Shown here: positions 27,713 to 64,000 of the stretch, one piece after another
Numbering within the stretch: position 1 is the first letter of the stretch
How the letters are laid out: each line of letters begins with the position of its first letter
DNA from: Saccharothrix syringae
GTDB taxonomy: Bacteria > Actinomycetota > Actinomycetes > Mycobacteriales > Pseudonocardiaceae
Direction of reading: 5' to 3'
Assembly: GCF_009498035.1 (NCBI RefSeq)
Contig: NZ_CP034550.1
Span: 6,510,001 to 6,574,000 of the forward strand
DNA length: 64,000 bases
Position numbers and translations under genes: made by a program
Notes under the pieces: model-generated
Seen by the model: the letters and a program-made list of their open reading frames with translations, nothing else
Told to the model about the DNA's origin: nothing
The model's database searches: none

Positions 27713-28894
27713 TCAGAGGAACTGCGTGTTCGGCTCCAACCCGCAGGCCACTCGACCGAACAGCTCGAAGTTCGTGTTCGGCTGCATGATCGAGTGCAGG
27801 CTGGAGGTCTGGATGTCCCGGGCGATGCGCTGGATCGGCACCGTCTGGTACACCGACGAACCACCGCTGGCGTTGGTGAGGATGTCCACGGCCTCCTTCG
27901 CCCGCAGGCACGTGGCGCCCATGTCCAGCCGCACGGTGACCCGCTCCCTCACCGACCACGGCGCGCCCGGCGCCTTGCCGTCGACCAGGGCCGCCGCGCG
28001 GTGCAGGTGGAAGCCGGCCTCGTCGACGCGCAGCGCGGCCTTGGCCACCTGCATGTGCGTCAGCGGCGCGTCGGCCTGGTGCGCGTAATCCGTGTAGGTG
28101 ATCTTGCGCGTGGGCAGCCGTTCCATGAACGCCTCGTCGGCGGCGCGGGCCAGGCCGTACGGCGTCGCGGCGACCACCGCGCACGCCCACGGCATGAACG
28201 GCACCTGCCACCGGGGCGACGCGGCGTTCAGCACCGACCGGTGCCTGCCCTCGGTGAACAGCGGGACCATCGGCAGGATGCGCGCCTCCGGCACGAACAC
28301 GTCCTTCGCCACCGTCGACACGCTGCCCGTGCCGCGCATCCCGGAGGAGTACCAGTCGTCGACGATCTCCAGGTCCCCCATCGGCACCAGCACCAGGATC
28401 GGCTGCGGCTCCCCGCCCTCGGCGGCGAGGACGGCGGCGTGGGCGTTCCAGGTCGCCTGCCGGGCGCCGGTGTTGAACACCCACCTGCCGTTGAGGACGA
28501 TGCCGCCGTCCACGGGCACGCCGACCGCGGTGGGGCCGAAGGTACCGCTGATCCGGACGTCGCCGGACCCGAACACCTCGTCCTGCACCTCGTCCGGGAA
28601 CAGCGAGGTCAGCCAGGTGCTGATGTTCCACACCGTGCTCACCCAGCCGGCCGCGCCGTCGCCCTTGGCGATCTCCGAGAGCACGTCGACCAGGGTGGTC
28701 GTGTCGACCTCGTAGCCGCCGTACCGGGTCGGGAGGGTCAGCCGCAGCAGGCCGGCCTCGGTGAGGGCCGCGATGGTGTCGTCGTGCAGGATGCGGTTCT
28801 CCTCCTGCCAGATCGCGTTCTTGGCGAACACGGGCGCCAGGTCCGCCGCCCGGCCGATCAGTTCCTCCCGCGAAGGTGCGGCACTGGTGTTCAT
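27713..28894 (-). CDS. Acyl-CoA-dehydrogenase-fold flavin monooxygenase, copy 1
   Basis: The 393-aa protein starts at ATG (complement 28892-28894). It has the layout of group D flavin monooxygenases: an N-terminal helical domain (EELIGRAADLAPVFAKNAIW, GLLRLTLPTRYGGYEVDTTT), a beta domain (VPVDGGIVLNGRWVFNTGAR, DDWYSSGMRGTGS), and a C-terminal helical domain ending CGLEPNT. Family members such as HsaA take reduced FMN or FAD from a separate reductase and hydroxylate aromatic or acyl substrates. It is closely similar to the proteins at 33351 and 34562. Two flavin reductases in the cluster could supply the flavin. It is the leftmost cluster gene. Confidence 0.85.
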   Translation of the reverse strand: MNTSAAPSREELIGRAADLAPVFAKNAIWQEENRILHDDTIAALTEAGLLRLTLPTRYGGYEVDTTTLVDVLSEIAKGDGAAGWVSTVWNISTWLTSLFPDEVQDEVFGSGDVRISGTFGPTAVGVPVDGGIVLNGRWVFNTGARQATWNAHAAVLAAEGGEPQPILVLVPMGDLEIVDDWYSSGMRGTGSVSTVAKDVFVPEARILPMVPLFTEGRHRSVLNAASPRWQVPFMPWACAVVAATPYGLARAADEAFMERLPTRKITYTDYAHQADAPLTHMQVAKAALRVDEAGFHLHRAAALVDGKAPGAPWSVRERVTVRLDMGATCLRAKEAVDILTNASGGSSVYQTVPIQRIARDIQTSSLHSIMQPNTNFELFGRVACGLEPNTQFL

Positions 28895-29090
28895 GAGCGC
28901 TCCGTAAGGTGTCCGCCCGGCCTGGGCCGGGACACGGGGTTGTGTGGCGGTCGACCGGGTGGTCGCGAACGGGCGGTCCGGCTCTCGCGGTCGCCCTGGA
29001 CCGATCCTGGCACCGACGGGTCGCGCGGCGCTTGTCCCAACGTGCCCTGTGCCGGGCACCGTCCACAGTGGTCCCCGCGGGCACGCCGAA

Positions 29091-29124
29091 GTCCCGGCAC
29101 GGCCGGGGGACGCCGTGCCGGGAC
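29091..29124 (-). terminator. Hairpin terminator after the Gfo/Idh gene
   Basis: A perfect 13-bp inverted repeat (29091-29103 with 29112-29124, 8-base loop) lies 13 bp past the leftward oxidoreductase stop, separating it from the monooxygenase gene at 27713. Confidence 0.7.
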
Positions 29125-29137
29125 GGTCAGCGCGGCG

Positions 29138-30295
29138 TCAGGCTTCCACCTTGGTCCAGGTCGACTCCCGGCCGGCCGACCGCTCGACCGCGTCGAGCAC
29201 CAGCTGGACCTGGAGCGCGTCGGCGAAGGACGGGGTCGGGTCCTCCCCCGCGGCCACGGCGGCGATGAAGTCGCGCAGCTCGTGGGTGAAGCTGTGCTCG
29301 TAGCCCAGGGCGCAGCCCGACGGCCACCACGCGGACATGTACGCGTGGTCCGGCTCGGTGGCCAGGATGCGGCGGAAGCCGCCCTCGGACCGGGGCGCGG
29401 CGGCGTCGTGGAACTCCAGCTCGTTCAGGCGCTCCAGGTCGAACGCGACCGAGCCGAGCGAGCCGTTGACCTCGACCCGCAGGGCGTTCTTGCGGCCGGT
29501 GGCGAAGCGGGTCGCCTCGTAGGTGGCGACCGCGCCGCCGTCCAGCCGGGCGGTGAACAGGACGGCGTCGTCCACGGTGACCGGCCCGAACTCCGGGTTG
29601 TCCGGGGTGCTGGTCAGCAGCGGGCGCTCCTTGACGAACGTCTCGGTCAGGGCGCTCACGCCGGTGATCCGCTGCCCGGTCACGTACTGGGTCAGGTCGA
29701 CGATGTGCGCGCCGATGTCGCCCAGCGCGCCGGAGCCGGCCCGGTCCTTCTCCAGCCGCCACAGCAGCGGGATGCCGGGGTCGGCGACCCAGTCCTGGAG
29801 GTAGACCGCGCGCACGTGCCGGATCGTGCCGAGCCGGCCGTCGGCGACGAGCTGCCGCATCAGGGCGACGGCCGGGAACCGGCGGTAGTTGTAGCCGCAG
29901 GCCGAGCGGACGCCGGACGCGGCGGCGCGGGCCGCCGCGTCGGCCATGGCGCGGGCCTCGTCGGCGGTGTTGGCGAGCGGCTTCTCGCACAGCACGTGCT
30001 TGCCCGCGGCGAGCGCGGCGGTGGAGATCTCGGCGTGCAGGTCGCCGGGCGTGCAGACGTCGATCACGTCGATGTCGTCGCGGGCCACGAGCTCGCGCCA
30101 GTCGGTCAGGTGCTCCTCCCAGCCCAGCCGGTCGGCGGCCGCGGCGACGTTGCCCTCGTCGCGACCGCAGATCGCGACGGTGCGGGCGCGCAGCGGGAGG
30201 TCGAACACCTTGTTGACCGTCCGCCACGCCAGCGAGTGCGCGGTGCCCATGAACGCGTAGCCGACGAGGCCGACCCGCAGCTCTGCTCTGTCCAC
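29138..30295 (-). CDS. Gfo/Idh/MocA-family NAD(P)-dependent oxidoreductase
   Basis: The 385-aa protein starts at GTG (complement 30293-30295). The dinucleotide motif GLVGYAFMGTAHSLAWR is at residues ~9-25, and the family's active-site Lys is in CEKPLANTADEARAM (EKP motif). The C-terminal sheet domain follows from ~130 (YNYRRFPAVALMRQLVADGR, DIGAHIVDLTQY). Members oxidise or reduce sugars, inositols and related polyols. In this cluster it could act on a sugar or cyclitol unit, though no glycosyltransferase is seen in the window. It may also be a cluster-edge gene. Confidence 0.88.
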   Translation of the reverse strand: MDRAELRVGLVGYAFMGTAHSLAWRTVNKVFDLPLRARTVAICGRDEGNVAAAADRLGWEEHLTDWRELVARDDIDVIDVCTPGDLHAEISTAALAAGKHVLCEKPLANTADEARAMADAAARAAASGVRSACGYNYRRFPAVALMRQLVADGRLGTIRHVRAVYLQDWVADPGIPLLWRLEKDRAGSGALGDIGAHIVDLTQYVTGQRITGVSALTETFVKERPLLTSTPDNPEFGPVTVDDAVLFTARLDGGAVATYEATRFATGRKNALRVEVNGSLGSVAFDLERLNELEFHDAAAPRSEGGFRRILATEPDHAYMSAWWPSGCALGYEHSFTHELRDFIAAVAAGEDPTPSFADALQVQLVLDAVERSAGRESTWTKVEA

Positions 30296-30316
30296 AACAG
30301 ACCCTTTCCCGTGGGA

Positions 30317-30341
30317 GCCCGGGCGGTCGGTCCGCCCGGGC
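30317..30341 (-). terminator. Hairpin terminator after the MFS gene
   Basis: A perfect 10-bp inverted repeat (GCCCGGGCGG at 30317-30326, partner at 30332-30341, 5-base loop) lies about 70 bp after the leftward exporter gene and 22 bp before the Gfo/Idh start. Confidence 0.6.
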
Positions 30342-30409
30342 CCTCGTTGGCAGTGGAATTCGGGGCGTTGGTGGACGACCTCGGCGCCGCGCGACCCGCG
30401 GGGGTCGGG

Positions 30410-31633
30410 CTACGCGGCCGGTGCCGGTTCCGCCGCCCCGTCGGCCGCCGGTCGCCTGAGGAAGCCGGTGGCCCAGGCGATCGGGATCGTGATGACGCCG
30501 ACGACGATGCCCGCGACCACGGCGCTGGAGACGCCGGAGCCGCCCGCGGCGCCGATGGCCGCGCCGCCGATGACCGAGCCCAGCGCGATGCCCGCGTTGG
30601 CGGCCGAGGCGGGCAGCGACGAGGCCAGCCGGCTGCCCGGGCCCGCCAGCTCCAGCACGCGGTACTGGAACGCGGGCACCGCGCCGAGCGCGAACATGCC
30701 CCAGACCAGCAGCGCGAGGATCACCACGGCGGCGATCGAGCCGCCGACCAGCAGCACCACCATCGAGGCGGTCGCGCCGACGCACCCGACGAGCATGGCG
30801 CGCGGCGCGCCGCCGCTGTCGGCGAACCGGCCGCCGCCGAACGAGCCCACCGCGGTGGACACGCCGTAGGCCAGCAGGAACACGCTGAGCAGCGCCCCGG
30901 TGACGCCGGTGACCCCCTCCAGGAACGGCACGATGTAGGTCAGCGCCGAGTACAGCGAGGCGAACATCAGCAGGCCCAGGCCCAGCACGGCCAGCACGCG
31001 CGGGGCGAAGGCGTGCCGGGCCTGGTCGCCCGCGCCGGCCTCGCCGGTGGCGGGCAGCGAGGGCACGGTCGCCGCGACCACCGCGCACACGAGCGCGCAG
31101 AGCACGACGATCGCGACGAACGAGTCGCGCCAGCTCAGCGCCTGGCCGACCAGGGTGCCCAGCGGCACGCCCGCCGCGGCGGACACGGCGAACCCGGAGA
31201 ACACCACCGAGATCGCCCGGCCCGCGCGGTCGGGCGGCACGACCGCCATGGCCACCAGGAAGGCGACCGCGACGAACAGGCCGTGCAGCGAGCCGGTGAC
31301 CGCCCGCACCACGACGAAGGGCACGAAGCTGCCGGTCAGCACCGGGACCAGGTTGCCCAGGGCGAACAGCAGGGCCGAGCCGAGCAGGATGAGCCGCTTG
31401 TCGAACCTGATGGTGAGCGCGGTCAGCAGCGGGCCGCCGATGGCCACGCCCAGCGCGTAGGCGGTGACCAGCGTGCCGGCGGTCGGGATGGAGACGTCCA
31501 GGTCGTCGGCGATGAGGTTGAGCACGCCGACCATGAGCAGTTCGGCCGAACCCAGCACGAACGAACCCACGAACAGCGTCGCCAGGACGACGTTCGCCCT
31601 GCCGCGGCTCAACACCGTCTGCCCGTCACTCAT
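30410..31633 (-). CDS. MFS drug:proton antiporter-type exporter
   Basis: The 407-aa protein starts at ATG (complement 31631-31633). It has twelve predicted membrane helices and DHA1-type signatures: LFVGSFVLGSAELLMVGVLN, LTIRFDKRLILLGSALLFAL in loop 2-3, and VPPDRAGRAISVVFSGFAVS. These are close to AraJ/chloramphenicol-exporter-like proteins. It is divergent from an HxlR regulator, the usual arrangement for an inducible exporter. It is a good candidate for self-protection or product export, but a general drug pump is equally possible from sequence alone. Confidence 0.88.
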   Translation of the reverse strand: MSDGQTVLSRGRANVVLATLFVGSFVLGSAELLMVGVLNLIADDLDVSIPTAGTLVTAYALGVAIGGPLLTALTIRFDKRLILLGSALLFALGNLVPVLTGSFVPFVVVRAVTGSLHGLFVAVAFLVAMAVVPPDRAGRAISVVFSGFAVSAAAGVPLGTLVGQALSWRDSFVAIVVLCALVCAVVAATVPSLPATGEAGAGDQARHAFAPRVLAVLGLGLLMFASLYSALTYIVPFLEGVTGVTGALLSVFLLAYGVSTAVGSFGGGRFADSGGAPRAMLVGCVGATASMVVLLVGGSIAAVVILALLVWGMFALGAVPAFQYRVLELAGPGSRLASSLPASAANAGIALGSVIGGAAIGAAGGSGVSSAVVAGIVVGVITIPIAWATGFLRRPAADGAAEPAPAA

Positions 31634-31714
31634 GTGCACCTTCCTTGACTGCCGTCGAGTCTGGGAGGAACCCGCAGCGGGAGCATCTCCCAAAGTGCTC
31701 AGCGGAGTTCCGGA

Positions 31715-31741
31715 CAACCGCTTGCATTCAGCAACCGCTTG
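31715..31741 (+). promoter_or_regulatory. Direct-repeat operator between MFS and HxlR genes
   Basis: CAACCGCTTG occurs at 31715-31724 and 31732-31741, a 17-bp period, in the 153-bp divergent gap. The repeat flanks TTGCATTC (31722-31729), which also lies in the HxlR control region near 25.8 kb. This is a plausible binding site for the HxlR protein encoded at 31787. Confidence 0.55.
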
Positions 31742-31786
31742 TACCGTAGCAGGGTGGTGGTAAACTGCAACCAGCTGGAGGTGGTC

Positions 31787-32236
31787 ATGATCGACGAACC
31801 ACGATCGGGCTGCCCCGTCAACGCCGCGGTCGAGGTCCTGGGCGACCGGTGGACGCTCATCGTGCTGCGCGACATCATGTTCGCGGACCGCCGCCACTTC
31901 CGGGCGCTGCAACGGGAGTCCGAAGAGGGCATCGCGTCCAACATCCTCGCGAGCCGCCTGCGCAACCTCGTCGCCGCGGGCCTGCTCACCCACGACGACC
32001 CCGGCGCGGGCAGGCGCGCGACCTACAGCCTCACCGAGGCGTCCATCGCGCTGGTGCCCGTGCTGGCCGAGCTGGGCTGGTGGGGGCTGCAGCACCGCCC
32101 CACGACCCCGGAGCTGCGCGTGCGGGCCGAGCGGCTGCACGAGGGCGGACCCCCGATGTGGCAGGCCGTCATGGAGGACCTGCGGGAACGCCACCTCGAC
32201 CGGCCGGCGGGGAAGGCGACCGCCGACAGCGCCTGA
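31787..32236 (+). CDS. HxlR-family regulator of the exporter
   Basis: The 149-aa protein starts at ATG 31787, with GGAGG 6-10 bases upstream. The winged helix shows SGCPVNAAVEVLGDRWTLIV, LRDIMFADRRHFRAL and IASNILASRLRNLVAAGLLT, and keeps the HxlR Cys in SGCP. It closely resembles the HxlR protein at 25243, so the two may be paralogues. It is divergent from the MFS gene, which it probably represses until the right compound appears. The short C-terminal tail is Arg/Asp-rich. Confidence 0.9.
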   Translation: MIDEPRSGCPVNAAVEVLGDRWTLIVLRDIMFADRRHFRALQRESEEGIASNILASRLRNLVAAGLLTHDDPGAGRRATYSLTEASIALVPVLAELGWWGLQHRPTTPELRVRAERLHEGGPPMWQAVMEDLRERHLDRPAGKATADSA

Positions 32237-32376
32237 GCCCGACCACGCCCGGGCCCGCGCGACCGCTCCCGCTCTGGACGCACCCACCGCCGGGCCCACC
32301 CCTCACCACCGGCCCCGGGCGACGCGGGAAGACGGCGCGCCGCCCGCACGACGCGCCGCCGGTGCGGCCGGTCCCC

Positions 32377-33258
32377 TCAGCCGAGGTCCCGGTAGGACCC
32401 GCGCACGACGTCCTCCAGCACCCCCACCTCCCGGGTCCGCCAGCCGAACGCCTCCTCGGCGCGGGTCGGGTCGAGCGTGATGTTGCGCCCCAGCACCCCC
32501 GCCAGCGGCCCGAACGCCCGCGCCGCCGCGTCCGCCCCCAGCGGCCCGCGGTCCGCGCCCGTCAGCTCGGCGATCGCCTCTGCCAGGTCCCGCACCCGCG
32601 GCAGCGCCCGCGAGGCCGCGTTGAACACGCCGCCGACCGGCCGCTCCAGCGCCGCCACGTACAGCCGGGCCAGGTCGTCGACGTGTACCGGCGACCACAG
32701 GTTCTCCCCCGGCTCCACGTACGGCGCGACACCGAGCCGCCGGGACACCGCGATCATCGCCGACACCAGCGCCGACCCGCCCCGACCGTGCACGAGCCCG
32801 CCGCGCAGCACCGTCGCGGTCACGTCACCGGCGGCCAGCACCTGCCGCTCCCCGTGCAGCTTGAACACCTGGGGCGAGCCCTCGTCCACGGCGTCGTCCT
32901 CGGCGGGCGGCCCGGCCACCGCATCGGGGTAGACCAGCGCGGTGCTCGCGTAGACGAACCCGCGCCCGCCGTCCAGCGCGCCCAGGAGCGCGCCGAGCGC
33001 GGGCTCCTCGACCGCGCGCATCGCCGGTTCGGCGTAGTCGACCGCGGCGTGCACCACGGCGTCGGCCCCGGCCGCCGCACCGCGCAGCACGTCCAGGTCG
33101 GCCAGCCCGCCGCGCACGACCTCCGCGCCCAGCGCGCCGACCCGCTCCGCCGCCCCCGCCGACCGGGCGAGCGCGGCGACGTGGTGGCCGGCCGCGAGCA
33201 GGTGCTCGGCGACCACGCCGCCGATGTAGCCGCTCGCCCCGGTGATGAAGACCTTCAT
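32377..33258 (-). CDS. NAD-dependent epimerase/dehydratase-like (extended SDR)
   Basis: The 293-aa protein starts at ATG (complement 33256-33258) with AAGGGG upstream. It begins MKVFITGASGYIGGVVAEHL, the TGxxGxxG motif of extended SDRs. The Ser/Tyr region is FVYASTALVYPDA, but the usual YxxxK is changed: the position reads VFKLHGERQ, so the catalytic Tyr is doubtful. The C-terminal part (HVDDLARLYVAALERP) is family-typical. It may act on a ketone or sugar in the pathway, or be a binding protein. A strong terminator separates it from the monooxygenases upstream. Confidence 0.82.
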   Translation of the reverse strand: MKVFITGASGYIGGVVAEHLLAAGHHVAALARSAGAAERVGALGAEVVRGGLADLDVLRGAAAGADAVVHAAVDYAEPAMRAVEEPALGALLGALDGGRGFVYASTALVYPDAVAGPPAEDDAVDEGSPQVFKLHGERQVLAAGDVTATVLRGGLVHGRGGSALVSAMIAVSRRLGVAPYVEPGENLWSPVHVDDLARLYVAALERPVGGVFNAASRALPRVRDLAEAIAELTGADRGPLGADAAARAFGPLAGVLGRNITLDPTRAEEAFGWRTREVGVLEDVVRGSYRDLG

Positions 33259-33301
33259 GCCGTGCTCCCCTTCGTCCTCCCGCGCCCGCCGAGCGGACGC
33301 G

Positions 33302-33345
33302 CGCGGGAGGGGTGCCCGGGTCGGGACCCGGGCACCCCTCCCGCG
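33302..33345 (-). terminator. Strong hairpin terminator after monooxygenase copy 2
   Basis: A 21-bp inverted repeat (33302-33322 with 33325-33345, 2-base loop) lies 5 bp past the stop of the leftward monooxygenase gene and ahead of the epimerase-like gene. Confidence 0.75.
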
Positions 33346-33350
33346 GTCGG

Positions 33351-34538
33351 CTAGATGTAGACGGTGTTGGGCTCCAGGCCGCACAGGACGCGGCCGTAGG
33401 TCTCGGTGTTGGTGTCCGGGTTGATCAGGGCGTGCAGGTTCACCGCGTTCATGTCGTTGACGATCCGGGGCAGCGGGCTCTTCCGGTCGAAGATGGCGCT
33501 GCCGCCGCTGGCCGAGAACAGGATGTCCACGGCCTCCTTGGCGAGCTTGGCCGCCTGGCCCCAGTCGACGCGGACCTGGGTCCGCTCCTCCAGCTTCCAG
33601 GGCTCGCCGTTGAGGCACTTCTCGTCCACCACGGCGGCGCACCGCTCGGCGTGGAACCGGGCCGCGTCGATCTTCAGCTTGGCCGTGCCGACCTGCACGT
33701 GCGTGATCGGCGCCTCGCCCTGCTTCTCGTAGAAGGTGTAGGTGATCTTGCGGTCGGGCAGGCGCTCCAGGAAGACCTCCAGCGCCGCCTCGGCCAGGCC
33801 GATCGGGGTGCCCGCGCCGGACGCCGCGGCCACCAGCGAGGTCGGCGTGCGGTACATCGGCGAGTCGGCGTTCGCCCGCGACAGCGACTGCGGGACCATG
33901 GCCGCGGCCATCGGGATGACCCGGTGCTGCGGCACGAACACGTCCTTGGCCAGCGTGGTGATGCTGCCGGTGGCCTTCAGGCCGGAGGTGTGCCAGTCGT
34001 CGACCAGCTCCAGGTCCGACATCGGCACCAGGGCCATGATCGGCTCGGGCTCGGCGTCCGGGCGGATCAGGATCGCCGCCACCTCCTGCCAGTGCGCGTG
34101 CAGCGCGCCGCTGGCGAACTTCGACGGGCCGTTGAGCACGATGCCGCCGTCCACCGGGGCGGCCATGACGCTCGGGGTGCTGGACCCGCACACCCGGACG
34201 TCCTCGGTGGCGAACACCTCGTCCTGGGCCTCGTCCGGGAACATGCCGGTGATGTAGGTCGGGGTCCAGTACACGCCGATCGTCCAGGACAGCGACCCGT
34301 CCGCGCGGGCGAGCTGGGCGCCGATGTCGACCAGGGTCCTGGTGTCGATCTCGTACCCGCCGTACCGCTTGGGGCGGCGCAGCTTGAACAGGCCGGCCTC
34401 GGCGAGCAGGTCGATCGCCTCGGGGTGCAGGCGCCGGTTCTCCTCCATCCAGGCCGCCTTCTCGCGGAGGACCGGCACGAGCTCGGCCACGCGGTTCACC
34501 AGTTGCTCTCGCGTAGAACTTTCCACGGTCGGCACCAT
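33351..34538 (-). CDS. Acyl-CoA-dehydrogenase-fold flavin monooxygenase, copy 2
   Basis: The 395-aa protein starts at ATG (complement 34536-34538), 23 bp after the stop of copy 3, so the two are probably co-transcribed. Landmarks match copies 1 and 3: GLFKLRRPKRYGGYEIDTRT, VDGGIVLNGPSKFASG, DDWHTSGLKATGSITTLAKD, KITYTFYEKQGEAPITHVQV and the ending CGLEPNTVYI. It differs from the others in the substrate-facing segment after DDWHTSGLKATGS, where the motif MAAAMVPQSLSRANADSPM replaces an EGRHRS-like block. This suggests a distinct substrate. It needs reduced flavin from a partner reductase. Confidence 0.85.
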   Translation of the reverse strand: MVPTVESSTREQLVNRVAELVPVLREKAAWMEENRRLHPEAIDLLAEAGLFKLRRPKRYGGYEIDTRTLVDIGAQLARADGSLSWTIGVYWTPTYITGMFPDEAQDEVFATEDVRVCGSSTPSVMAAPVDGGIVLNGPSKFASGALHAHWQEVAAILIRPDAEPEPIMALVPMSDLELVDDWHTSGLKATGSITTLAKDVFVPQHRVIPMAAAMVPQSLSRANADSPMYRTPTSLVAAASGAGTPIGLAEAALEVFLERLPDRKITYTFYEKQGEAPITHVQVGTAKLKIDAARFHAERCAAVVDEKCLNGEPWKLEERTQVRVDWGQAAKLAKEAVDILFSASGGSAIFDRKSPLPRIVNDMNAVNLHALINPDTNTETYGRVLCGLEPNTVYI

Positions 34539-34561
34539 CGCTTTCTTCGCTCCTTGAGGGC

Positions 34562-35749: not shown

Positions 35750-35909
35750 CTGCGCTCCTCGGTACGGTGAACTGCACACGTCTCCCGCTCGTCCCGGCGG
35801 TCCGCGCCGGGGTTGGCCACCCGTCGCACCCACAACCCTGACGTGAGCCGGCGTCGGGCACATCTCCCAGGTTGCCTACCGGCCCGGCGGCGGTGGACCC
35901 GGCAGCGGG

Positions 35910-35944
35910 CAAGAAAAAGCCCACCGTCCCATGAGGACGGTGGG
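35910..35944 (-). terminator. Intrinsic terminator with U-tract
   Basis: CCCACCGTCC (35920-35929) pairs with 35935-35944 over a 5-base loop. On the leftward transcript it is followed by a run read as UUUUUC, giving a classic rho-independent terminator 15 bp after the CMD-fold gene that ends at 35960. Confidence 0.9.
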
Positions 35945-35959
35945 TCGAGGAGGGCCGCG

Positions 35960-36505
35960 TTACGACCAGAGGTAACCGTTCGCGACGACGTTGCGCGCGA
36001 CGCCCTCGTAGGCGGAGGGGTCGTCCGGCCGGATCGTGCCCAGGCCGTCGACGTACCGGTTGTACATGCAGAACGCCGCCGCGATGAGCACGGTGTCGTG
36101 GATCTCCAGGTCGGTCGCGCCCGCCGCCCTCGCGGCCTCGACCAGCCCGGCGGTCACCTCGCGGCCGGACCGCCGCACGGCGTCCGCGATGCCCAGCAGC
36201 GCCCGCAGCTTGCCGCCGATCGGCGCGGTGGCGGGGTCGGCCCGCACGAGCCCGACCAGGTCCGCTCCCCCGTCCAGCTGGGCGGCGGCGAACGCCGAGT
36301 GCGAGTCGCGGCAGAACGAGCACTCGTTGAGGCCGGACACGCGCGCGGCGATCAGCTCGCGCTCGCCCCGCGACAGCGAACTCGGCCCGCGCAGCAGGAC
36401 CTCGGCCAGCTCGTTGAGCGGCTTGGCGGTCTCCGGCCGGTAGTGCAGCAGGCCCGCGATGCCCGGGTACTCCTCCTCGTCCACGCCCAGGTCGATGTGT
36501 GCCAC
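35960..36505 (-). CDS. AhpD/CMD-fold protein 1
   Basis: The 181-aa protein probably starts at GTG (complement 36503-36505), since GGGGAGG is ~10 bases ahead; the GTG at 36514 is too close to that site. The central motif is complete: Glu, then C62-S-F-C65-R-D-S-H69 in LNECSFCRDSH, which in AhpD-type proteins is a peroxide-reducing relay. The rest is all helical (LSRGERELIAARVSGLN, IAAAFCMYNRYVDGLG). It leads with two membrane-protein genes in one direction and ends in an intrinsic terminator. Two more CMD-fold proteins occur in the cluster. Confidence 0.88.
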   Translation of the reverse strand: MAHIDLGVDEEEYPGIAGLLHYRPETAKPLNELAEVLLRGPSSLSRGERELIAARVSGLNECSFCRDSHSAFAAAQLDGGADLVGLVRADPATAPIGGKLRALLGIADAVRRSGREVTAGLVEAARAAGATDLEIHDTVLIAAAFCMYNRYVDGLGTIRPDDPSAYEGVARNVVANGYLWS

Positions 36506-36538
36506 GGCGGTCACACCTCCCCGGGTCGGGCGCCGCCG

Positions 36539-37021: not shown

Positions 37022-37054
37022 GATCAACTCCTTCGTGGGTCGTGGGGCGGTCGG

Positions 37055-47217: not shown

Positions 47218-47237
47218 CCCGCGTCGAAGGGACACCC

Positions 47238-48302: not shown

Positions 48303-48307
48303 CCGGT

Positions 48308-48339: not shown

Positions 48340-48341
48340 GC

Positions 48342-50977: not shown

Positions 50978-50984
50978 GTCGAGC

Positions 50985-52510: not shown

Positions 52511-52516
52511 GACCCG

Positions 52517-52570: not shown

Positions 52571-52574
52571 GTGT

Positions 52575-56782: not shown

Positions 56783-57823
56783 ATGCGAGCAACCCTGGTT
56801 CAGGTCGGTCTGCGCGGGCTGTCCACCGTCCAGGTCCGGCGGGTCCGGCCGGTGCGGTTCGGCGCGGCGGGTGGTGACGTGGCCCGGGTCTACCGGGAGC
56901 TGGAGCGCGATTTCGGCGTGCTCGCGCCGCCCGTGGCGCTGCACTCGCCCGCGCCGGACGTGCTGGCCGCGGCCTGGGTGATGCTGCGGGAGACGCTGCT
57001 GGTGCCCGGGACGGTGCCGCGCGCGGTGAAGGAGGCCGTGTCCACGGCGGTCTCCGAGGGCAACGAGTGCCCGTTCTGCGTCACCATGCACTCCTCGATG
57101 CTCAACGACCTGGTGGGCGGGCGCGACGGCGCCGACCGGGACCCGGCGGCCCGGGCGGCGGCGGACTGGGCCAGGGCCGGCGCGAGCCCCGACACGGCCG
57201 CCGCCCACCCCGTGCCGTTCCCGGCCGACCAGGCGCCGGAGATCGTGGGCACGGCGGTGGTCCTGCACTACCTCAACCGGATGGTGAACCTGTTCCTGGG
57301 CGAGCTGCCGCTGCCGCCGGGCGCGCCCGCGGCGTCGATGGTGGTCGTGCGGCGGGTGCTGGTGCACCTGATCAAGTCGGCCGAGCGGCGCGCCCCGCGG
57401 CCGGGCGCGTCGCTGGACCTGCTGCCCGACGCGCCGCTGCCCGGGGACCTGGGCTGGGCGCGGGGTCACCCGGCCATCGCGGGCGCGTTCGCCCGGGGCG
57501 TGGCCGCGGTGGAGCTGGCGGGCCGCCGCTCGGCGCCGGAGGAGGTGCGCGAGCTGGTGTCGGCGCACCTGTCGCGGTGGGACGGGCGGCCGGTGGGCGT
57601 GAGCCGGGCGTGGGTGGAGGACGCGGTGGCCGGGCTGTCCCCCGGGCACCGGGCGACCGGCCGGCTGGCCCTGCTCACGGCGCTGGCGTCCTACCAGGTC
57701 GACCAGGGCGTGGTCGACGCCTTCCGCGCGGTCTCGCCGACCGACCGGGCGCTGATCGACGTGACGGCGTGGGCGAGCCTGGCGGCGGCGCGGCGGATCG
57801 GCGGCTGGGCGCGGACGAGCTGA
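56783..57823 (+). CDS. AhpD/CMD-fold protein 3, two-domain form
   Basis: The 346-aa protein starts at ATG 56783, 43 bp after the P450. The motif C96-P-F-C99 in GNECPFCVTMHSSM is complete with the nearby Glu and His. The protein is nearly twice the length of single-domain AhpD-like members, and the second half (GHPAIAGAFARGVAAVELAG, EEVRELVSAHLSRWDG) appears to be a second helical repeat without the Cys pair. It resembles alkylhydroperoxidase-like proteins of actinobacteria. It is the last gene of the DUF1702-P450 unit and ends at a strong hairpin. Confidence 0.85.
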   Translation: MRATLVQVGLRGLSTVQVRRVRPVRFGAAGGDVARVYRELERDFGVLAPPVALHSPAPDVLAAAWVMLRETLLVPGTVPRAVKEAVSTAVSEGNECPFCVTMHSSMLNDLVGGRDGADRDPAARAAADWARAGASPDTAAAHPVPFPADQAPEIVGTAVVLHYLNRMVNLFLGELPLPPGAPAASMVVVRRVLVHLIKSAERRAPRPGASLDLLPDAPLPGDLGWARGHPAIAGAFARGVAAVELAGRRSAPEEVRELVSAHLSRWDGRPVGVSRAWVEDAVAGLSPGHRATGRLALLTALASYQVDQGVVDAFRAVSPTDRALIDVTAWASLAAARRIGGWARTS

Positions 57824-57893: not shown

Positions 57894-58649
57894 TCACCCG
57901 ACCCGGTCGGCCACGGGCGTGGTGCGGCTGTCCAGTTCGGGCAGCGCCAGCAGGATCGGCAGGTCCAGCAGGCGCAGCAGCCTGGTCTCGACGTCCACCT
58001 CGACCGACTGCCCGGCCTGCACCAGGACCGGTTCGGCGTCGCCGACGAACAGCGGCCGGCGCTTCCACGGGCGCGGGTCCAGGGCGTTGACCGCCACCAC
58101 GGCGACCCGGATGAACCACTCGCCCTCGGGCACGCCGTTGAGCTGGTAGGGGCCCGAGCCGTCGCGGATGTCGCACGCGCTCGGGACGCCCTGGGCGATC
58201 GGGTCCCGGAACGCGCCCACGTACACGCGCACCGGCGTGCCCGCGTCGGGCACGCCGACCCAGCCGCACACCGCGCCGCCCTGCGGGCCGCGCGCGGGCC
58301 CGGGGAACGACGACAGCGACAGCACGCCCGCGCCGGACAGGGCGCGGTAGCGGGCCGGCGAGACGCCCACGCTGCGGGTGAACCGGCTGGTGAAGGTGCC
58401 CAGGCTGTTGTACCCCACCAGGTAGGAGATCTCGGTGACGCTCGCCGAGGTCTCCAGCAGCAGTTCCTTGGCCTTGCTGAGCCGGATCGCGGTGAGGAAG
58501 CGACCCGGTGAGGTGCCGGTCATGGCCCGGAAGACCCGGGAGAAGTAGAACTTGCTCAATATCGCGGTGTCCGCCATGTCGGCCAGCGACAGCGGCTCGT
58601 GGTATCGGTTCCACATCGTGTCGATCGCGCGCTCTACCGCGTCCTGCAC
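57894..58649 (-). CDS. AraC-family regulator with unusual C-terminal domain
   Basis: The 251-aa protein probably starts at GTG (complement 58647-58649), since GGGAGG is 7 bases ahead; an ATG at 58664 has a weaker site. Unlike most AraC proteins the HTH is N-terminal (AVERAIDTMWNRYHEPLSLA, ILSKFYFSRVFRAMTGTSPG, ISYLVGYNSLGTFTSRFTRS). The C-terminal ~140 residues contain GGAVCGWVGVPDAGTPVRVY, GPYQLNGVPEGEWFIRVAVV and look like a beta-rich ligand domain. I do not know its ligand. The position between the P450 unit and the carotenoid-oxygenase gene suggests a cluster regulator. Confidence 0.85.
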   Translation of the reverse strand: MQDAVERAIDTMWNRYHEPLSLADMADTAILSKFYFSRVFRAMTGTSPGRFLTAIRLSKAKELLLETSASVTEISYLVGYNSLGTFTSRFTRSVGVSPARYRALSGAGVLSLSSFPGPARGPQGGAVCGWVGVPDAGTPVRVYVGAFRDPIAQGVPSACDIRDGSGPYQLNGVPEGEWFIRVAVVAVNALDPRPWKRRPLFVGDAEPVLVQAGQSVEVDVETRLLRLLDLPILLALPELDSRTTPVADRVG

Positions 58650-59028: not shown

Positions 59029-60168
59029 TCAGCCCCGCGGCGGCGCGGGCAGCCACGCGGTGCGGCGGGCGGGGCGCGCTCCGGCCGGCAGGTGCACGAC
59101 GGCGGCGGGCGGGCCGGCGGGGTCGGCGGCGTCGAGCACGAGCAGCTCGGCGCGCCGCCGCCCCGGCCGCTCCACCGGGACGAGCAGCCGGCCCCGGTCC
59201 ACGTGCGGCCGGCCGGCGGTCGCGCCCCCGCCCAGCCACCGCACGCCGGTGCGGCCGGTGGCGGTGTCGTACCGGACGAGTTCCGCGCCGGAGGCGGTGT
59301 TCCGCGTGCCGTGCAGCACGGGACCGTCGACCGCGGCCGCCGCCACGCCGGGGACGAGGTCGCGCTCGGCCACCTCGCCGGCGACCGGGTCGACCACCCA
59401 CCGGCGCAGCGCGGCGGGCCGTGCGGCCGACCGCTCGCCGTCGAAGGCCCGGGGGCGTCGCACGGCGTCGACGACGACGCGCCGCCCGTCCTCGTGGGCG
59501 CCCGCGATGTCGTGGACGTGCCCGGGTTCGACCGGGAACCACCGCACCGAGGGCTCGCCCGTGCGGTCGAGCAGGCCGAGCCGCGCGGGTCCGCCCGGCC
59601 GCCAGGTGCACGGGAACCGCTCCCCCACCAGGGCCGTCGCGCGGCTGTGCGCCACGGGGCCGTCGAAGAACACCACGTGGGAGCCGGTGAGGGCCACGGT
59701 GGCCACCAGGGGCGCCCCGGTCAGCGGGAACGGCCTGGCCTCCAGCACCGCGCCGCGCCCGTCGGCCACGAGGTGCTCGGCGTACCCGAGCCCGGGGTAG
59801 GTGGCGACGGTGTGCCACCGGCCGTCCTCGTCGGCGACGGGGCGGGCCAGGGTGACCGGACCGCGGCCGTCGGGCCCCTGGTCCCGGTGCCACGCGGGCG
59901 CGAGGGCCGGAACGGGCCCCAGGAGCCCCGTGGGGCCGCGTTCGGCGGTGGCGCGGTAGGCGTGGGCCGCGCCGCCCTCCAGGCGCGCACCGGACACCAG
60001 GGACGGTCCCGGCAGGACGTCGGGGACGTCCTGCCGGGGCGCGCGCGCCGGGTGCGGGTCGGCCCGCAGGAACAGGCCGTCCAGACCCTCGGGCAGCGTG
60101 CCGTCGACCCGGAGCGGCACCGCCGGGAGGGAGGGGACGACCACCGGTTGCCGGACCAGGGGACCCAT
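59029..60168 (-). CDS. Carotenoid-oxygenase-like protein with degenerate iron site
   Basis: The 379-aa protein starts at ATG (complement 60166-60168) behind GGAGGTGA. The family pattern is visible in order: LRVDGTLPEGLDGLFLRADP, YAEHLVADGRGAVLEARPFP, HVVFFDGPV, VEPGHVHDIAGAHEDGRRVV and RRWVVDPVAGEVAERDL. Known carotenoid oxygenases are longer (about 450-500 residues) and use four His to hold iron. Here the His of the early TAHPK-like and HDF-like motifs and the final PFGLHG-like His are not evident; the end reads LPAGARPARRTAWLPAP. It may be a non-catalytic or changed-mechanism protein that binds a polyene. It is divergent from a TetR gene. Confidence 0.75.
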   Translation of the reverse strand: MGPLVRQPVVVPSLPAVPLRVDGTLPEGLDGLFLRADPHPARAPRQDVPDVLPGPSLVSGARLEGGAAHAYRATAERGPTGLLGPVPALAPAWHRDQGPDGRGPVTLARPVADEDGRWHTVATYPGLGYAEHLVADGRGAVLEARPFPLTGAPLVATVALTGSHVVFFDGPVAHSRATALVGERFPCTWRPGGPARLGLLDRTGEPSVRWFPVEPGHVHDIAGAHEDGRRVVVDAVRRPRAFDGERSAARPAALRRWVVDPVAGEVAERDLVPGVAAAAVDGPVLHGTRNTASGAELVRYDTATGRTGVRWLGGGATAGRPHVDRGRLLVPVERPGRRRAELLVLDAADPAGPPAAVVHLPAGARPARRTAWLPAPPRG

Positions 60169-60201
60169 CGGGGTCACCTCCAGATTCCCGCCCTGTAGCA
60201 T

Positions 60202-60230
60202 AACACCGTTAGGTAAACGATAACGGCGTT
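60202..60230. promoter_or_regulatory. TetR operator, inverted repeat
   Basis: AACACCGTTA (60202-60211) and TAACGGCGTT (60221-60230) form an inverted repeat with one mismatch and a 9-base spacer, in the 78-bp gap between the divergent TetR and carotenoid-oxygenase-like genes. It ends 16 bases before the TetR start, suiting autorepression. Confidence 0.75.
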
Positions 60231-60246
60231 GTGCAACACTGTCAAG

Positions 60247-60930
60247 GTGAGCCCGCGCAAGCTCGACCCCGAGATCCGCACCGCCCTGGTGGACATCGCG
60301 GCGCGGCTGCTGGCCGAGCACGGCGCCGAGGCGCTGTCCACGCGCAAGATCGCCGCCGAGGCCGGCACCTCGACCATGGCCGTCTACACCTACTTCGGCG
60401 GGATGAGCGGTCTGGTCCGGGAGATGGTCCACGAGGGGTTCGCGCGCCTGGAGCGCCAGTTCGCGCGCGTGCGGCGCACCGACGACCCGGTGGCGGACAT
60501 GCTCGTGTTCGGCCACGCCTACCGGCACAACGCGAAGGCGAACTCCCACCTCTACGCGGTGATGTTCGGCGGCCAGTCGCTGGCCGGCTTCTCGCTCACC
60601 GAGGACGACCGCCAGTACGGCCGCTACACCCTCGTGGACGTCGTCGGGTGCGTCACCCGCTGCGTGGAGGCCGGGCGGTTCCGGCAGGCCGACCCGCTGC
60701 TGGTGGCCCACCAGATGTGGATCGCCACGCACGGCCTGGTGAACCTGGAGCTGGGCGGCTACCTGGTCGACCCGGTGGGTGCCGACCGCTGCTACGAGAA
60801 CCTGCTCGGCAGCCTCGTCATCGGGGTCGGCGACACCGCGGAGGCGATGGCGCGGTCCACGGTCGCGGCGAACCGGCGCGTGCGCCGCGAGGTCACCAGC
60901 ACCCCGGAAGCGGTCGGGCCCCGGCGCTGA
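60247..60930 (+). CDS. TetR-family transcriptional regulator
   Basis: The 227-aa protein is placed at GTG 60247; no good ribosome site precedes it, so the transcript may be leaderless or nearly so. The HTH is typical: RTALVDIAARLLAEHGAEAL, STRKIAAEAGTSTMAVYTYF, GGMSGLVREMVHEGF. The C-terminal ligand domain (~75-215) includes YAVMFGGQSLAGFSLTEDDR and resembles TetR_C_33-like proteins. It is divergent from the carotenoid-oxygenase-like gene across an inverted-repeat operator. The same half-site lies before the UbiB-like operon, so it may act more widely in the cluster. Confidence 0.9.
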   Translation: MSPRKLDPEIRTALVDIAARLLAEHGAEALSTRKIAAEAGTSTMAVYTYFGGMSGLVREMVHEGFARLERQFARVRRTDDPVADMLVFGHAYRHNAKANSHLYAVMFGGQSLAGFSLTEDDRQYGRYTLVDVVGCVTRCVEAGRFRQADPLLVAHQMWIATHGLVNLELGGYLVDPVGADRCYENLLGSLVIGVGDTAEAMARSTVAANRRVRREVTSTPEAVGPRR

Positions 60931-60944
60931 TCGCGCCGGGGCCC
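60916..60944. terminator. Hairpin overlapping the TetR stop codon
   Basis: GGGCCCCGGCGC (60916-60927) pairs with 60933-60944; the loop holds the TGA stop. It lies between convergent genes and probably terminates both. Confidence 0.7.
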
Positions 60945-60954
60945 GGGTCCCGCG

Positions 60955-62637
60955 TCAGAGCGGGATGTTGCCGTGCTTGCGCCGGGGCGGCTCGCCGCGC
61001 TTGTCGCGCAGCACCGCCAGCCCCCGGGCCACCACCGCCCGCGTCTCCGCGGGGTCGATCACGTCGTCCACCAGGCCGCGCTCGGCGGCGTACTGCGGGT
61101 GCATCAGCGCCTCGGCGTACTCCGCCACCAGCTCGGCCCGCAGCGCGACCGGGTCGGCCGCCGCCGCCAGCTCCCGGCGGAACAGCACGTTCACCGCGCC
61201 GTCGGCGCCCATCACGGCCACCTCGTTGGTGGGCCAGGCGAACGACAGGTCCGTGCCGATGGAGCGCGAGTCCATCACGATGTACGCGCCGCCGTACGCC
61301 TTGCGCACGATCACCTGCACGCGCGGTACCGTGGCCTCACAGTAGGCGTAGAGCAGCTTCGCGCCGTGCCGGACGATGCCGCCGTACTCCTGCCCGGTGC
61401 CCGGCAGGAACCCCGGCACGTCCACCAGGGTCACCAGGGGGATGCCGAAGGCGTCGCAGAAGCGCACGAACCGGGCGGCCTTCTCCGCCGCCGGGATGTC
61501 CAGCACCCCGGCCAGCACGCTCGGCTGGTTGCCGACCACGCCGACCGTCTCGCCGTCGACCCGCCCGAACGCGCACACGACGTTGCGCGCCCAGTCCCGG
61601 TGCACCTCCAGGAACTCGCCGTCGTCGAGCAGCTCCTCGACCAGCAGCCGCACGTCGTAGGGCCGGTTCGGCTCCACCGGGACGATGCGGGCCAGTTCCG
61701 CCCGCAGGTCCTCGGTCGCGCCGCACGGCCCGGTGGACGGCGCGCGGTCGAGGTTGTTGGAGGGCAGCAGCGACAGCAGGAACCGGACCTCCTCCAGGCA
61801 GCTCTCCTCGTCGTCGCAGACGAACGCGGCCACGCCGGACCGCTCGCCGTGCACGGCCGCCCCGCCCAGCTCGTCGTGGGTCACCCGCTCGCCGTTGACC
61901 GCCTGCACCACGTCCGGCCCGGTCAGGTACATCTGCGCGGTGCCGCGGACCATGAAGGTGAAGTCGGCCAGCGCCGGCGAGTAGGCCGCGCCGCCCGCGC
62001 AGGGGCCGAGCACGACGCTGATCTGCGGCACGACGCCCGAGGCGGCGACGATGCGGCGGAAGATGCCCCCGTAGCCGTGCAGGGACATCACCCCCTCCTG
62101 GATGCGGGCGCCGCCGCTGTCGTTGAGGGAGATGATCGGGGACCCGGTGGCGAGGGCCAGGTCCATCACCTTGTGGATCTTGGCCGCGTGCGCCTCGCCG
62201 AGCGAGCCGCCGAAGACGGTGAAGTCCTGGGCGTAGACGAACACCCGGCGGCCGTCGACCGTGCCGCTGCCCGCGACCACGCCGTCGGTGTGCGGCCGGC
62301 CCGACAGGCGCATGCCGGTGCCCAGGTGGCGCCGGTACAGGTCGACCTCCACGAACGAGCCCTCGTCGAGCAGCAGGTCCAGGCGTTCGCGGGCGGTGCG
62401 CTTGCCCAGGGCGTGCTGGCGGCGCACGCCCTCCGGCCGGCCGGCCACGATGCCCGCGCGCAGCCTGGCGTGCTCCTCGCGCACCGAGTCCATCGTGCGC
62501 GGCGAGGCGGCGCCGGCCGCGGTCGCCCCGCCGTTGCCGTTGGCCCCGCCGTTGCCGTTGGCCGGGCGGGGCACCTCCACCGGCACGAAGTCCACCTCGG
62601 CACCGCCCCGGCCCGCGCCGGCGGTCCGCCCCGTCAT
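60955..62637 (-). CDS. Acyl-CoA carboxylase carboxyltransferase (beta) subunit
   Basis: The 560-aa protein starts at ATG (complement 62635-62637); a Gly/Asn-rich stretch (PANGNGGANGNGGATAAG) makes the first ~45 residues look like a linker, and translation could start further in. The two crotonase-like halves show SLNDSGGARIQEGVMSLHGY, LGPCAGGAAYSPALADFTFM and VDVPGFLPGTGQEYGGIVRH, RKAYGGAYIVMDSRS. It is a propionyl/acetyl-CoA carboxylase beta-type subunit and should make malonyl-CoA (or methylmalonyl-CoA) with a biotinylated alpha subunit encoded elsewhere. In the cluster it would feed the PKS. Confidence 0.93.
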   Translation of the reverse strand: MTGRTAGAGRGGAEVDFVPVEVPRPANGNGGANGNGGATAAGAASPRTMDSVREEHARLRAGIVAGRPEGVRRQHALGKRTARERLDLLLDEGSFVEVDLYRRHLGTGMRLSGRPHTDGVVAGSGTVDGRRVFVYAQDFTVFGGSLGEAHAAKIHKVMDLALATGSPIISLNDSGGARIQEGVMSLHGYGGIFRRIVAASGVVPQISVVLGPCAGGAAYSPALADFTFMVRGTAQMYLTGPDVVQAVNGERVTHDELGGAAVHGERSGVAAFVCDDEESCLEEVRFLLSLLPSNNLDRAPSTGPCGATEDLRAELARIVPVEPNRPYDVRLLVEELLDDGEFLEVHRDWARNVVCAFGRVDGETVGVVGNQPSVLAGVLDIPAAEKAARFVRFCDAFGIPLVTLVDVPGFLPGTGQEYGGIVRHGAKLLYAYCEATVPRVQVIVRKAYGGAYIVMDSRSIGTDLSFAWPTNEVAVMGADGAVNVLFRRELAAAADPVALRAELVAEYAEALMHPQYAAERGLVDDVIDPAETRAVVARGLAVLRDKRGEPPRRKHGNIPL

Positions 62638-62668
62638 CGCGCCACCACCCCGTCGGCCGCTCCGGTCG

Positions 62669-63220
62669 TCATGCGCGCGCACCTCCCGTGACCGGGGCCA
62701 CCCGGCGGTAGCCGCCGCCGAAGAACAGCAGCGGCCCCGCGCCGGGCGCGGCGCCGGCGGCCAGCACCTCGCCGACGAAGATGGTGTGGTCGCCGCCCTC
62801 GTGGGCGTGGGTGAGCCGGCACTCCAGCCACGCCGACGCGCCACCCAGCAGCGGGGCGCCGGTGTGCGGGCCGGGCCGCCAGTCGACGCCGGTGAACTGG
62901 CCGGGGCCCCGCGGGCGCCGCCGGTCGGCGAAGTACCGGGCCGTCGACTCCTGGTCGGCGCCGAGGATGGACACCGCGAAGTGCCCGGCCCCGGTGATCG
63001 CCGAGTGCATGACGGCGGTGCGCGCCACGCAGCACATCACCAGCGGCGGGTCCAGCGACACCGAGCTGAAGGCGTTCGCCGTCATGCCGTGGGCGAACTC
63101 GCCGCCGGTGGTCAGCACGGTGATCCCGGTGGCGAACTCGCGCATCACCTCCCGCAGGCCCGGTGCGTGCCGGGTCGCCACGGGGGTCTCGCCGCGCGGC
63201 GCGGAACCGTTCTCGGTCAC
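62669..63220 (-). CDS. Flavin reductase, copy 2
   Basis: The 183-aa protein starts at GTG (complement 63218-63220) with GAGGAGGG ahead. It is a close paralogue of the reductase at 39146: REFATGITVLTTGG, HGMTANAFSSVSLDPPLVM, HFAVSILGADQESTARYFAD and GGDHTIFVGEVL. It has an extra ~15-residue N-terminus. It is spaced 15 bp after the partial PKS and 31 bp before the carboxylase gene, all leftward, so the three probably form one operon. It likely supplies reduced flavin to one or more of the three flavin monooxygenases. Confidence 0.9.
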   Translation of the reverse strand: MTENGSAPRGETPVATRHAPGLREVMREFATGITVLTTGGEFAHGMTANAFSSVSLDPPLVMCCVARTAVMHSAITGAGHFAVSILGADQESTARYFADRRRPRGPGQFTGVDWRPGPHTGAPLLGGASAWLECRLTHAHEGGDHTIFVGEVLAAGAAPGAGPLLFFGGGYRRVAPVTGGARA

Positions 63221-63235
63221 GATGCCCTCCTCGGG

Positions 63236-64000
63236 TCACCCGGCGGCGCTCGGGCGCACCGCCGGTCGGCAGCAGCTCTCGACCACGCGCTCCAGCCCGT
63301 CGTCGGCACGCGGCAGCCGGGTCCGCACCCGGCTCCACACCCGGCCCGCGAACAGGGCCGCGCCGTCGACGGGCGCGCCGAGCGCGAACGCGGCGGCGAC
63401 GGCGGTGAGCAGCGGGACCGACGACGGGCCGTCGGTCTCGGTGGCCAGCGCCCTGGCCGCGGGGTCGATCTCGGCGACCAGGTCGGTGAGCGCGCGCCCC
63501 GGGCCCGCTTCGAGCACCAGGTCCGCGCCGGCGATCGCGCGGGCGGCGGCCTGGTGGAACCGGACCGGCGCGAGGACCTGGTCCCGCAGCAGGCCGCGCA
63601 CGTCGGCGGCGCCCCCCACGGGGCGGGCGGTCACGGTGGAGACGACCTCCCGGGTCACCGGTGCGAACGCGACGCCGGCCAGCACCTCGGCCATGGCGTC
63701 GGCGGCGGCCCGCACGCGCGGCGTGTGGAAGGCGTGCGGCGCGTTCAGCCGGAACGCCGGCACGCCGTCGTCCAGCGCGGCGGCGCACACCCGGTCCAGG
63801 GCGTCGGCGGGGCCGGACAGCACGACCTGGTGCGGGCTGTGGAAGCCCGCGACCACCACGTCCCGCTCACCGCGGGCCAGGGCGGTCGCCCGCTCGGCCC
63901 CGGTGAGCAGGACGGCCATGCCGCCCGCGCCGTCGCCCGCGTCGTCCATCGCCCGGTCGCGGGCCGCGGCCAGCGCGAGCACCCGCTCGTCGTCCACCGC
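63236..64000 (-). CDS. C-terminal AT domain of a second polyketide synthase (cut by window edge)
   Basis: The visible 254 residues are the last two-thirds of an acyltransferase domain, followed at once by the stop. Landmarks parallel the AT of the PKS at 40106: VVVAGFHSPHQVVLSGPADA, NAPHAFHTPRVRAAADAMAE with the AT His, LRDQVLAPVRFHQAAARAI and LVLEAGPGRALTDLVAEIDP. The active-site GHSxG motif falls beyond the right edge. A PKS that ends in AT, without ACP, KR or DH, recalls KS-AT or AT partner subunits of lipid and polyunsaturated-fatty-acid-type synthases. Upstream domains are unseen. Confidence 0.88.
   Translation of the reverse strand, partial: AVDDERVLALAAARDRAMDDAGDGAGGMAVLLTGAERATALARGERDVVVAGFHSPHQVVLSGPADALDRVCAAALDDGVPAFRLNAPHAFHTPRVRAAADAMAEVLAGVAFAPVTREVVSTVTARPVGGAADVRGLLRDQVLAPVRFHQAAARAIAGADLVLEAGPGRALTDLVAEIDPAARALATETDGPSSVPLLTAVAAAFALGAPVDGAALFAGRVWSRVRTRLPRADDGLERVVESCCRPAVRPSAAG

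Follow-up and report, generated by a model that had tools for sequence, protein, structure and literature searches.

The gene cluster around an enediyne polyketide synthase (PKS) of Saccharothrix syringae raises the question of whether it lacks UnbU and UnbV, and of what an acyltransferase (AT) gene does where the analysed stretch ends. This stretch, the window, comprises 64,000 bp (bases 6510001-6574000 of the single-contig 10.93-Mb genome), and positions are given in its numbering unless another contig is named. A sequence-only reading of the window had described an enediyne-type cluster without UnbU or UnbV and with a second, AT-ended PKS at the right edge, and had proposed either a new enediyne branch or a polyene pathway reusing the enediyne PKS. 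Here the window was read together with 20 kb of its left and 36 kb of its right flank. Two UnbV-UnbU pairs are found in the right flank, and the gene at the edge is a free-standing AT; trees and gene order suggest a mosaic assembled from two enediyne clusters, the second PKS having shrunk to its AT. Genes were called with a simple codon-usage script, and start positions are therefore approximate.

Core genes and the right edge

The PKS (A53, 1930 aa; 40106-45898, minus strand) has the domains KS-AT-ACP-KR-DH and a PPT-like C-terminus. KS, AT, KR and DH were recognised with Pfam; the ACP and PPT were judged by conserved motifs, not by profile, the ACP from a Leu-His-Leu-Ser-Ser motif in the alignment and the PPT-like part by eye in an alignment of 13. 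In its KS, AT, ACP, KR and DH residues the protein matches a set of 71 PKSs longer than 1500 aa (itself included), and its active sites are intact. The neighbouring gene (A52; 39649-40104, minus strand) encodes an E10-type 4HBT thioesterase with best PDB matches to 4i4j ('ACP-polyene thioesterase', E 3e-72), which we take to be SgcE10, CalE7 (8e-66) and DynE7 (5e-41). A DUF1702 protein (A61; 54431-55375, plus strand; PF08012) falls in the E3-like subfamily of the DUF1702 tree, from which rows of 12 loci were left out as near-duplicate, split or short. The domains, PDB matches and PF08012 bear out the three enediyne markers named by the sequence-only reading, as does the distance of about 8.5 kb that it gave between PKS and DUF1702 (the Pfam match begins 8,497 bases from the PKS gene).

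Across the right edge runs the gene of a free-standing enediyne-type AT (A69, 444 aa; 63236-64570, minus strand, with 63236-64000 inside the window). AT is its sole Pfam domain, and its best PDB match is the DynE8 AT over residues 17-411 (395 residues); DisD is also among the matches. Next to it lie UnbU1 (64567-65607, minus strand), whose nearer end is 567 bases past the edge, and UnbV1 (65604-67544, minus strand). UnbV1, UnbU1 and AT form an operon with 4-base overlaps, the AT start overlapping the UnbU1 end, and the AT occupies the place where the enediyne PKS often sits. Genes for an SDR, a DUF899 protein, an AMP-ligase and an enoyl-CoA hydratase follow to the right of UnbV1, before UnbV2 (72829-74751, plus strand; 5.3 kb past UnbV1) and UnbU2 (74748-75788, plus strand).

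No UnbU or UnbV match occurs among the genes called inside the window, and a whole-genome UnbU search likewise gave none there, the nearest UnbU being 18.7 kb from the PKS; NCBIfam has no model for UnbU, UnbV or DUF1702. The observation made within the window was thus correct, and the apparent absence is an edge effect, because both pairs lie past the right edge. A second full PKS is likewise rejected, the gene being only 444 aa long. An assembly or truncation artefact was also rejected: five assemblies carry the AT frame uninterrupted at this position, in one case as a longer form. Two findings had been named beforehand as speaking against the sequence-only reading: that both follow directly past the edge, which is the case, and that the AT-ended gene belongs to an unrelated neighbouring cluster. 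The latter does not hold, because the AT gene is co-operonic with UnbV-UnbU, is related to enediyne PKS ATs and accompanies the cluster in five genomes.

DUF1702, UnbV and UnbU presumably correspond to E3, E4 and E5, and we take E2 to be of DUF1702 type as well, in a second subfamily. All gene types of the enediyne cassette are then present, not contiguously but dispersed over about 36 kb (39.6-75.8 kb), and the window covers the left and central portions of a single large enediyne cluster. In the accessible text of an mBio survey of 81 enediyne strains (PMC5181780), the E3/E4/E5/E/E10 cassette is described as conserved, and the presence of an E2 gene serves as a rule for 9-membered enediynes. 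The cluster studied here has a single DUF1702 gene, in the E3-like clade, while its thioesterase is nearest to 4i4j.

These genes also settle most of the choice left by the sequence-only reading. That the enediyne PKS has been reused in a polyene or another non-enediyne pathway is highly improbable, DUF1702, UnbV, UnbU, the PKS and the E10-type thioesterase all lying within about 36 kb; the proposal falls once UnbU and UnbV are found past the edge, and no point in its favour was left after the flank was read. Among enediyne clusters it represents a new variant. The distinct sub-type that had been proposed is real, but for another reason: doubled UnbV-UnbU and a PKS reduced to its AT, not missing UnbU and UnbV.

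Reduction stages and relatives

Relatives of the free AT were searched among 5.8 billion proteins, restricted to similar length and to the 7990 candidates with most shared words, which gave 59 proteins. The closest carry the name Saccharothrix. The first seven matches after the query are four free ATs (Saccharothrix, Actinosynnema), a 430-aa AT (P0004), a dead KS-AT (P0007) and P0008; many of the remaining 51 are named S-malonyltransferase by their source. P0008 was rejected as a further case, since it looks like a truncated full PKS, and so was a split PKS in genome G144.

The arrangement is common to five of 25 same-genus genomes, and the UnbV-UnbU-AT operon with its 4-base overlaps is present in all five. 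Four have the AT only, and one (G058) has in its place an 810-aa gene with both a KS and an AT, the KS active Cys being replaced by Trp and several internal deletions being present. In P0007 the Cys is likewise Trp, and deletions lie at roughly corresponding positions. Only the Cys of the KS catalytic triad is lost in G058, Cys, His and His are all lost in P0007, and the KS is absent from the window AT gene; none of the 71 PKSs deviates at the Cys or at either His, and the Cys is Trp in both KS-bearing remnants. Identity is 47% between the dead KSs of G058 and P0007, 39-44% between them and three working KSs (two 36-residue side matches omitted) and 80-91% within the working set. Since the KS is retained in G058, it would have been lost at least twice, if the tree place of P0004 is right.

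Eleven AT remnants were aligned (ten distinct, P0005 being the same as K68_40). All 71 PKSs and 11/11 remnant rows keep the Ser, Arg, catalytic His and motif-I Gln of the AT. At the oxyanion position Gln is found in 71/71 PKSs and in nine of the 11 remnant rows, including P0002 and P0003, the nearest relatives of the window AT. The Asn of the PKS motif GYNGP is His in 10/11 remnant rows (P0007 keeps Asn) and in none of the 71 PKSs. In the smaller AT tree of 28 chosen rows, the remnant ATs (nine remnants) form one clade with support 96/95.

Ratios of nonsynonymous to synonymous substitution (dN/dS) were calculated according to Nei-Gojobori and are rough owing to compositional bias at synonymous sites. 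Values for the remnant AT were 0.53-0.68 in seven distant pairs and 0.19-0.32 in the three close pairs of the trio G057-G066-G068. The PKS AT gave 0.32-0.44 (distant) and 0.13-0.43 (close), UnbU1 0.20-0.37 (ten pairs), UnbV1 0.17-0.43, and the flavin reductase gene FRb, which adjoins the AT in the same operon, 0.55-0.72 (distant) and 0.14-0.16 (close). The remnant AT evolves about as fast as FRb, and not freely.

An UnbU2-like gene (≥64% identity) is present in 19 of the 25 same-genus genomes; in five of these 19, the same five that carry the short AT, UnbU1 lies about 10 kb from it. In at least five of 390 genomes of the family, all five from the genus of the window, a short AT frame and a full PKS occur on the same strand at a distance of 20-36 kb. 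None of 50 other enediyne-bearing genomes (50 of 80 loci; many drafts) has two UnbU genes on one contig, and 12/50, many of them again drafts, have a second UnbU on a different contig. The gene after UnbU in the 80 loci is a PKS of more than 1000 aa in 50, a short AT in one (A. pretiosum), a PKS split in the gene calls in one, another gene in 12 and a gene on the opposite strand in 10; UnbU was not picked up in five loci, and one locus ended.

Several loci show further arrangements. UnbV1-UnbU1 pairs without a directly following PKS and with tandem DUF1702 genes nearby occur in L055, L061, L073, L074, L077 and L083, a PKS beginning at the far end of the locus in L074 and L083; the cassette order is fluid in these loci. 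Two genomes from another genus of the same family contain an enediyne-type AT that is not part of an enediyne PKS: a free 435-aa AT beside a carboxylase beta subunit and, by eye, an AraC-like frame in G217 (L052:8708-12457, G217:C24), and an AT match only, with one TGA, in G212 (C32:79956-81155). Among the matches listed for these two genomes there is no PKS match over the KR-DH part, and there is no UnbU match.

Origin and possible role of the free AT

Tree input was pruned of near-duplicate, split or short rows (14 of 81 in the larger AT tree and six named rows in the UnbU tree). The UnbU tree (84 rows; a quick tree with a long outgroup branch) places UnbU1 and UnbU2 in different clades, and UnbU2 adjoins Saccharothrix copies. 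The window DUF1702 belongs to a Kitasatospora/Streptomyces clade (support 96), not with the Saccharothrix copies, and the AT of the window PKS groups with Saccharothrix PKSs (100/99). A single Pseudonocardiaceae clade contains both the remnant ATs and the main PKS ATs; recruitment of the remnant AT from Streptomyces or Kitasatospora PKSs was rejected by the AT tree.

Gene order was compared with same-genus clusters without the AT. G075 has the order TetR-SDR-DUF899-ligase-hydratase-UnbV2-UnbU2 as in the window, and the genes for the carboxylase beta subunit (PCCB), the flavin reductase (FR), AT, UnbU1 and UnbV1 are missing between TetR and SDR; SDR, ligase and hydratase are missing too in G069, G071 and G077. 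In all four genomes PCCB and RPE65 come after the main PKS. The cluster of Actinocrispum wychmicini reads UnbV1-UnbU1-x-AhpD-SDR-x-PKS-thioesterase-PCCB-TetR-RPE65, and the window has the same order and strands, AT-FR replacing the stretch from x to thioesterase. These data agree with the merging of two clusters and a later loss of what had become redundant. The working PKS and UnbV2-UnbU2 would come from one enediyne lineage, and a block UnbV1-UnbU1-[second PKS]-FR-PCCB-TetR-RPE65, with DUF1702, P450 and GMC-type tailoring genes, from another. Of this other PKS, the KS activity would have gone first and the remaining domains later, until the AT alone was left.

Formation of a polyene by the PKS and its release by an E10-type thioesterase are established chemistry of the enediyne family. 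Here the complete PKS would build the polyene and the thioesterase would release it, and the free AT most likely serves, or until recently served, as a malonyl-CoA transferase in trans; its target would probably be the carrier domain of the PKS that is left, and it would be fed by the co-operonic carboxylase subunit. A malonyl transferase is favoured because the free ATs keep the Gln-Arg pair, which the accessible text of PMC12895367 ties to malonyl specificity and which PfaB of polyunsaturated fatty acid synthases is there said to be without. Taken as a whole, the account of a two-cluster mosaic, with the second PKS reduced to an AT that acts or until recently acted in trans, is put at somewhat better than even.

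A number of observations weigh against it. No trans AT is needed, because the main PKS has an intact AT of its own. The window AT may itself be impaired, because Arg replaces the oxyanion Gln (64205-64207), where P0004 has Asn, and the remnant AT evolves faster than UnbU1, UnbV1 and the PKS AT. These same points, together with the dead KS in two remnants and the lack of UnbU1 in 14 of the 19 same-genus genomes with an UnbU2-like gene, would suit a free AT that is a slowly decaying, functionless leftover kept by its co-transcription with UnbV1-UnbU1. The frame is nevertheless open in all remnants examined, Ser, His, Arg and motif-I Gln persist throughout the alignment, dN/dS is low within the G057-G066-G068 trio, and the KS was removed while the AT persists (at least twice on the placement of P0004). 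We regard such a leftover as possible but clearly less than even; it is possible that it describes the window's own copy better than the other remnants.

The merger is also open to challenge. Support for the remnant ATs as sister to A. wychmicini is weak (44/63), and the pattern could also stem from an early duplication and many subsequent losses. A single tandem duplication of UnbV-UnbU-PKS within the cluster and the genus, with no merger, would account for the common Pseudonocardiaceae clade of remnant and main PKS ATs. UnbU1 and UnbU2 are nonetheless deeply separate in the quick tree with its long outgroup branch, the nearest kin of DUF1702 are not those of the PKS, and a tree joining the remnants with only the main PKS ATs of eight genomes was rejected by the approximately unbiased test (p-AU 0.019), though that group omitted close relatives of the main PKS; we consider this duplication decidedly unlikely.

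A different role is suggested by PfaB. As in PfaB, a dead KS and an AT derived from the synthase's own KS-AT stand beside a full synthase in G058, and P0007 is of the same kind; the accessible text of PMC12895367 describes the same path, a synthase KS-AT copy with a dead, fast-diverging KS'. The free AT would then be the enediyne counterpart, a terminal acyltransferase that removes the finished polyene from the PKS or sets its chain length, and the His that replaces Asn in nearly all remnants and in no PKS could be read in its favour. The Gln-Arg pair of malonyl transferases, lost in PfaB according to that text, is however kept in 11/11 remnants, and an E10-type thioesterase is already there for release, so that we hold this role to be unlikely; the window gene also differs from PfaB in having no KS at all. 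A broader version, of which we are doubtful, is a PfaB-like helper that arose as a synthase copy whose KS died and was then deleted, and whose AT, in trans with UnbV1-UnbU1, would influence how the polyene is loaded, how long it grows or how it is released, the two UnbV-UnbU systems of different origin serving two different steps.

Remaining genes and known systems

Left of the core, VWA and TelA genes and a DDE transposase fragment (16808-21298) are perhaps the left border region of the cluster. The probable left cluster end is formed by GT87 and GT2 glycosyltransferases and an HxlR regulator (22456-25773, minus strand; Pfam), with homologues in three related clusters. On the minus strand at 27713-37912 lie three acyl-CoA-dehydrogenase-type flavoproteins, a GFO/IDH/MocA oxidoreductase, an MFS transporter, an epimerase, an AhpD-like protein and two genes without Pfam match, most genes having homologues in four related regions; an HxlR-like gene (31754-32236, plus strand) was recognised by homology only. 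An NAD-dependent epimerase/dehydratase (A50; 38092-39114, minus strand; PF01370) and flavin reductase FRa (A51; 39146-39652, minus strand; PF01613) adjoin the thioesterase. The order PKS-thioesterase-flavin reductase-epimerase is shared by six of seven related regions compared, and an FRa-type gene follows PKS and thioesterase in many related loci.

Between PKS and DUF1702, at 46243-54122, are a54, a methionine-synthase-like a55, MDMPI (minus strand), an ABC1 kinase-like protein, AhpD, SDR and a GMC oxidoreductase (minus strand), in an order similar to that of related clusters. Then follow a cytochrome P450 (55372-56739, plus strand; PF00067), a conserved gene a63 with homologues in related clusters and a weak AhpD/CMD match under the Pfam cut-off (56783-57823, plus strand), the AraC-type regulator AraC1 (57894-58649, minus strand; PF12833), an RPE65/carotenoid-oxygenase-like protein (59029-60177, minus strand; PF03055), a TetR regulator (60247-60930, plus strand; PF00440), the PCCB-like acyl-CoA carboxylase beta subunit (60955-62637, minus strand; PF01039, E 5e-183) and flavin reductase FRb (62669-63220, minus strand; PF01613). 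The RPE65-like oxygenase, TetR and carboxylase genes (59029-62637) are also grouped in the clusters of G060 and A. wychmicini, and RPE65 and carboxylase come after the PKS in four more. G058 has an extra DUF1702 gene between AraC and RPE65 (K58_23; 4469572-4470543 in that genome), which groups with one in G069 and not with the window copy. Elsewhere in the S. syringae genome (L006-L007, C1:2847477-2857291) there is a second, classical contiguous cassette DUF1702-UnbV-UnbU-PKS-thioesterase, its thioesterase nearest to DynE7; its PKS and the window PKS are 42% identical over 1780 aligned residues.

The cluster resembles the E3/E4/E5/E/E10 cassette of the C-1027, calicheamicin and dynemicin families, as given in the accessible text of PMC5181780, in its five gene types, the expected PKS domains and a thioesterase directly after the PKS. 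It differs in the spread of these genes over about 36 kb, in UnbV-UnbU doubled in two lineages and in the PKS remnant (AT) in the second UnbV-UnbU operon. With Kitasatospora/Streptomyces clusters of the UnbU1 lineage (for example CB01950, L072) it shares GMC oxidoreductase, AhpD, SDR, ABC1-kinase-like, P450, DUF1702, AraC and UnbV-UnbU genes, but there a full PKS and thioesterase follow UnbV-UnbU. Like the discrete ATs of trans-AT PKSs (DisD type), the window protein is a free malonyl-type AT; unlike them, it is most closely related to the ATs of enediyne PKSs and accompanies a PKS whose own AT is intact. For the genus, a putative enediyne cluster resembling that of maduropeptin is mentioned for the Saccharothrix espanaensis genome in the accessible text of PMC3469384. 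Neither 'acyltransferase' nor 'Actinosynnema' appears in the main text of the PMC5181780 survey as accessible. No description of a free enediyne AT was found in the accessible parts of the open-licence papers PMC4787774, PMC12895367, PMC5181780, PMC3469384 and PMC7692728, and one may exist elsewhere.

For genome mining, the locus is a reminder that core genes can be concealed by the edge of a window or contig, and that an AT found on its own may be what is left of a PKS. The shrinking of a PKS to one domain, from the full enzyme through a dead KS-AT to the AT alone, is visible in living relatives and is a parallel to PfaB. Clusters with doubled UnbV-UnbU, one pair tied to a bare AT, are natural gene sets for assigning the pairs to steps on the route from the linear polyene to the enediyne core.

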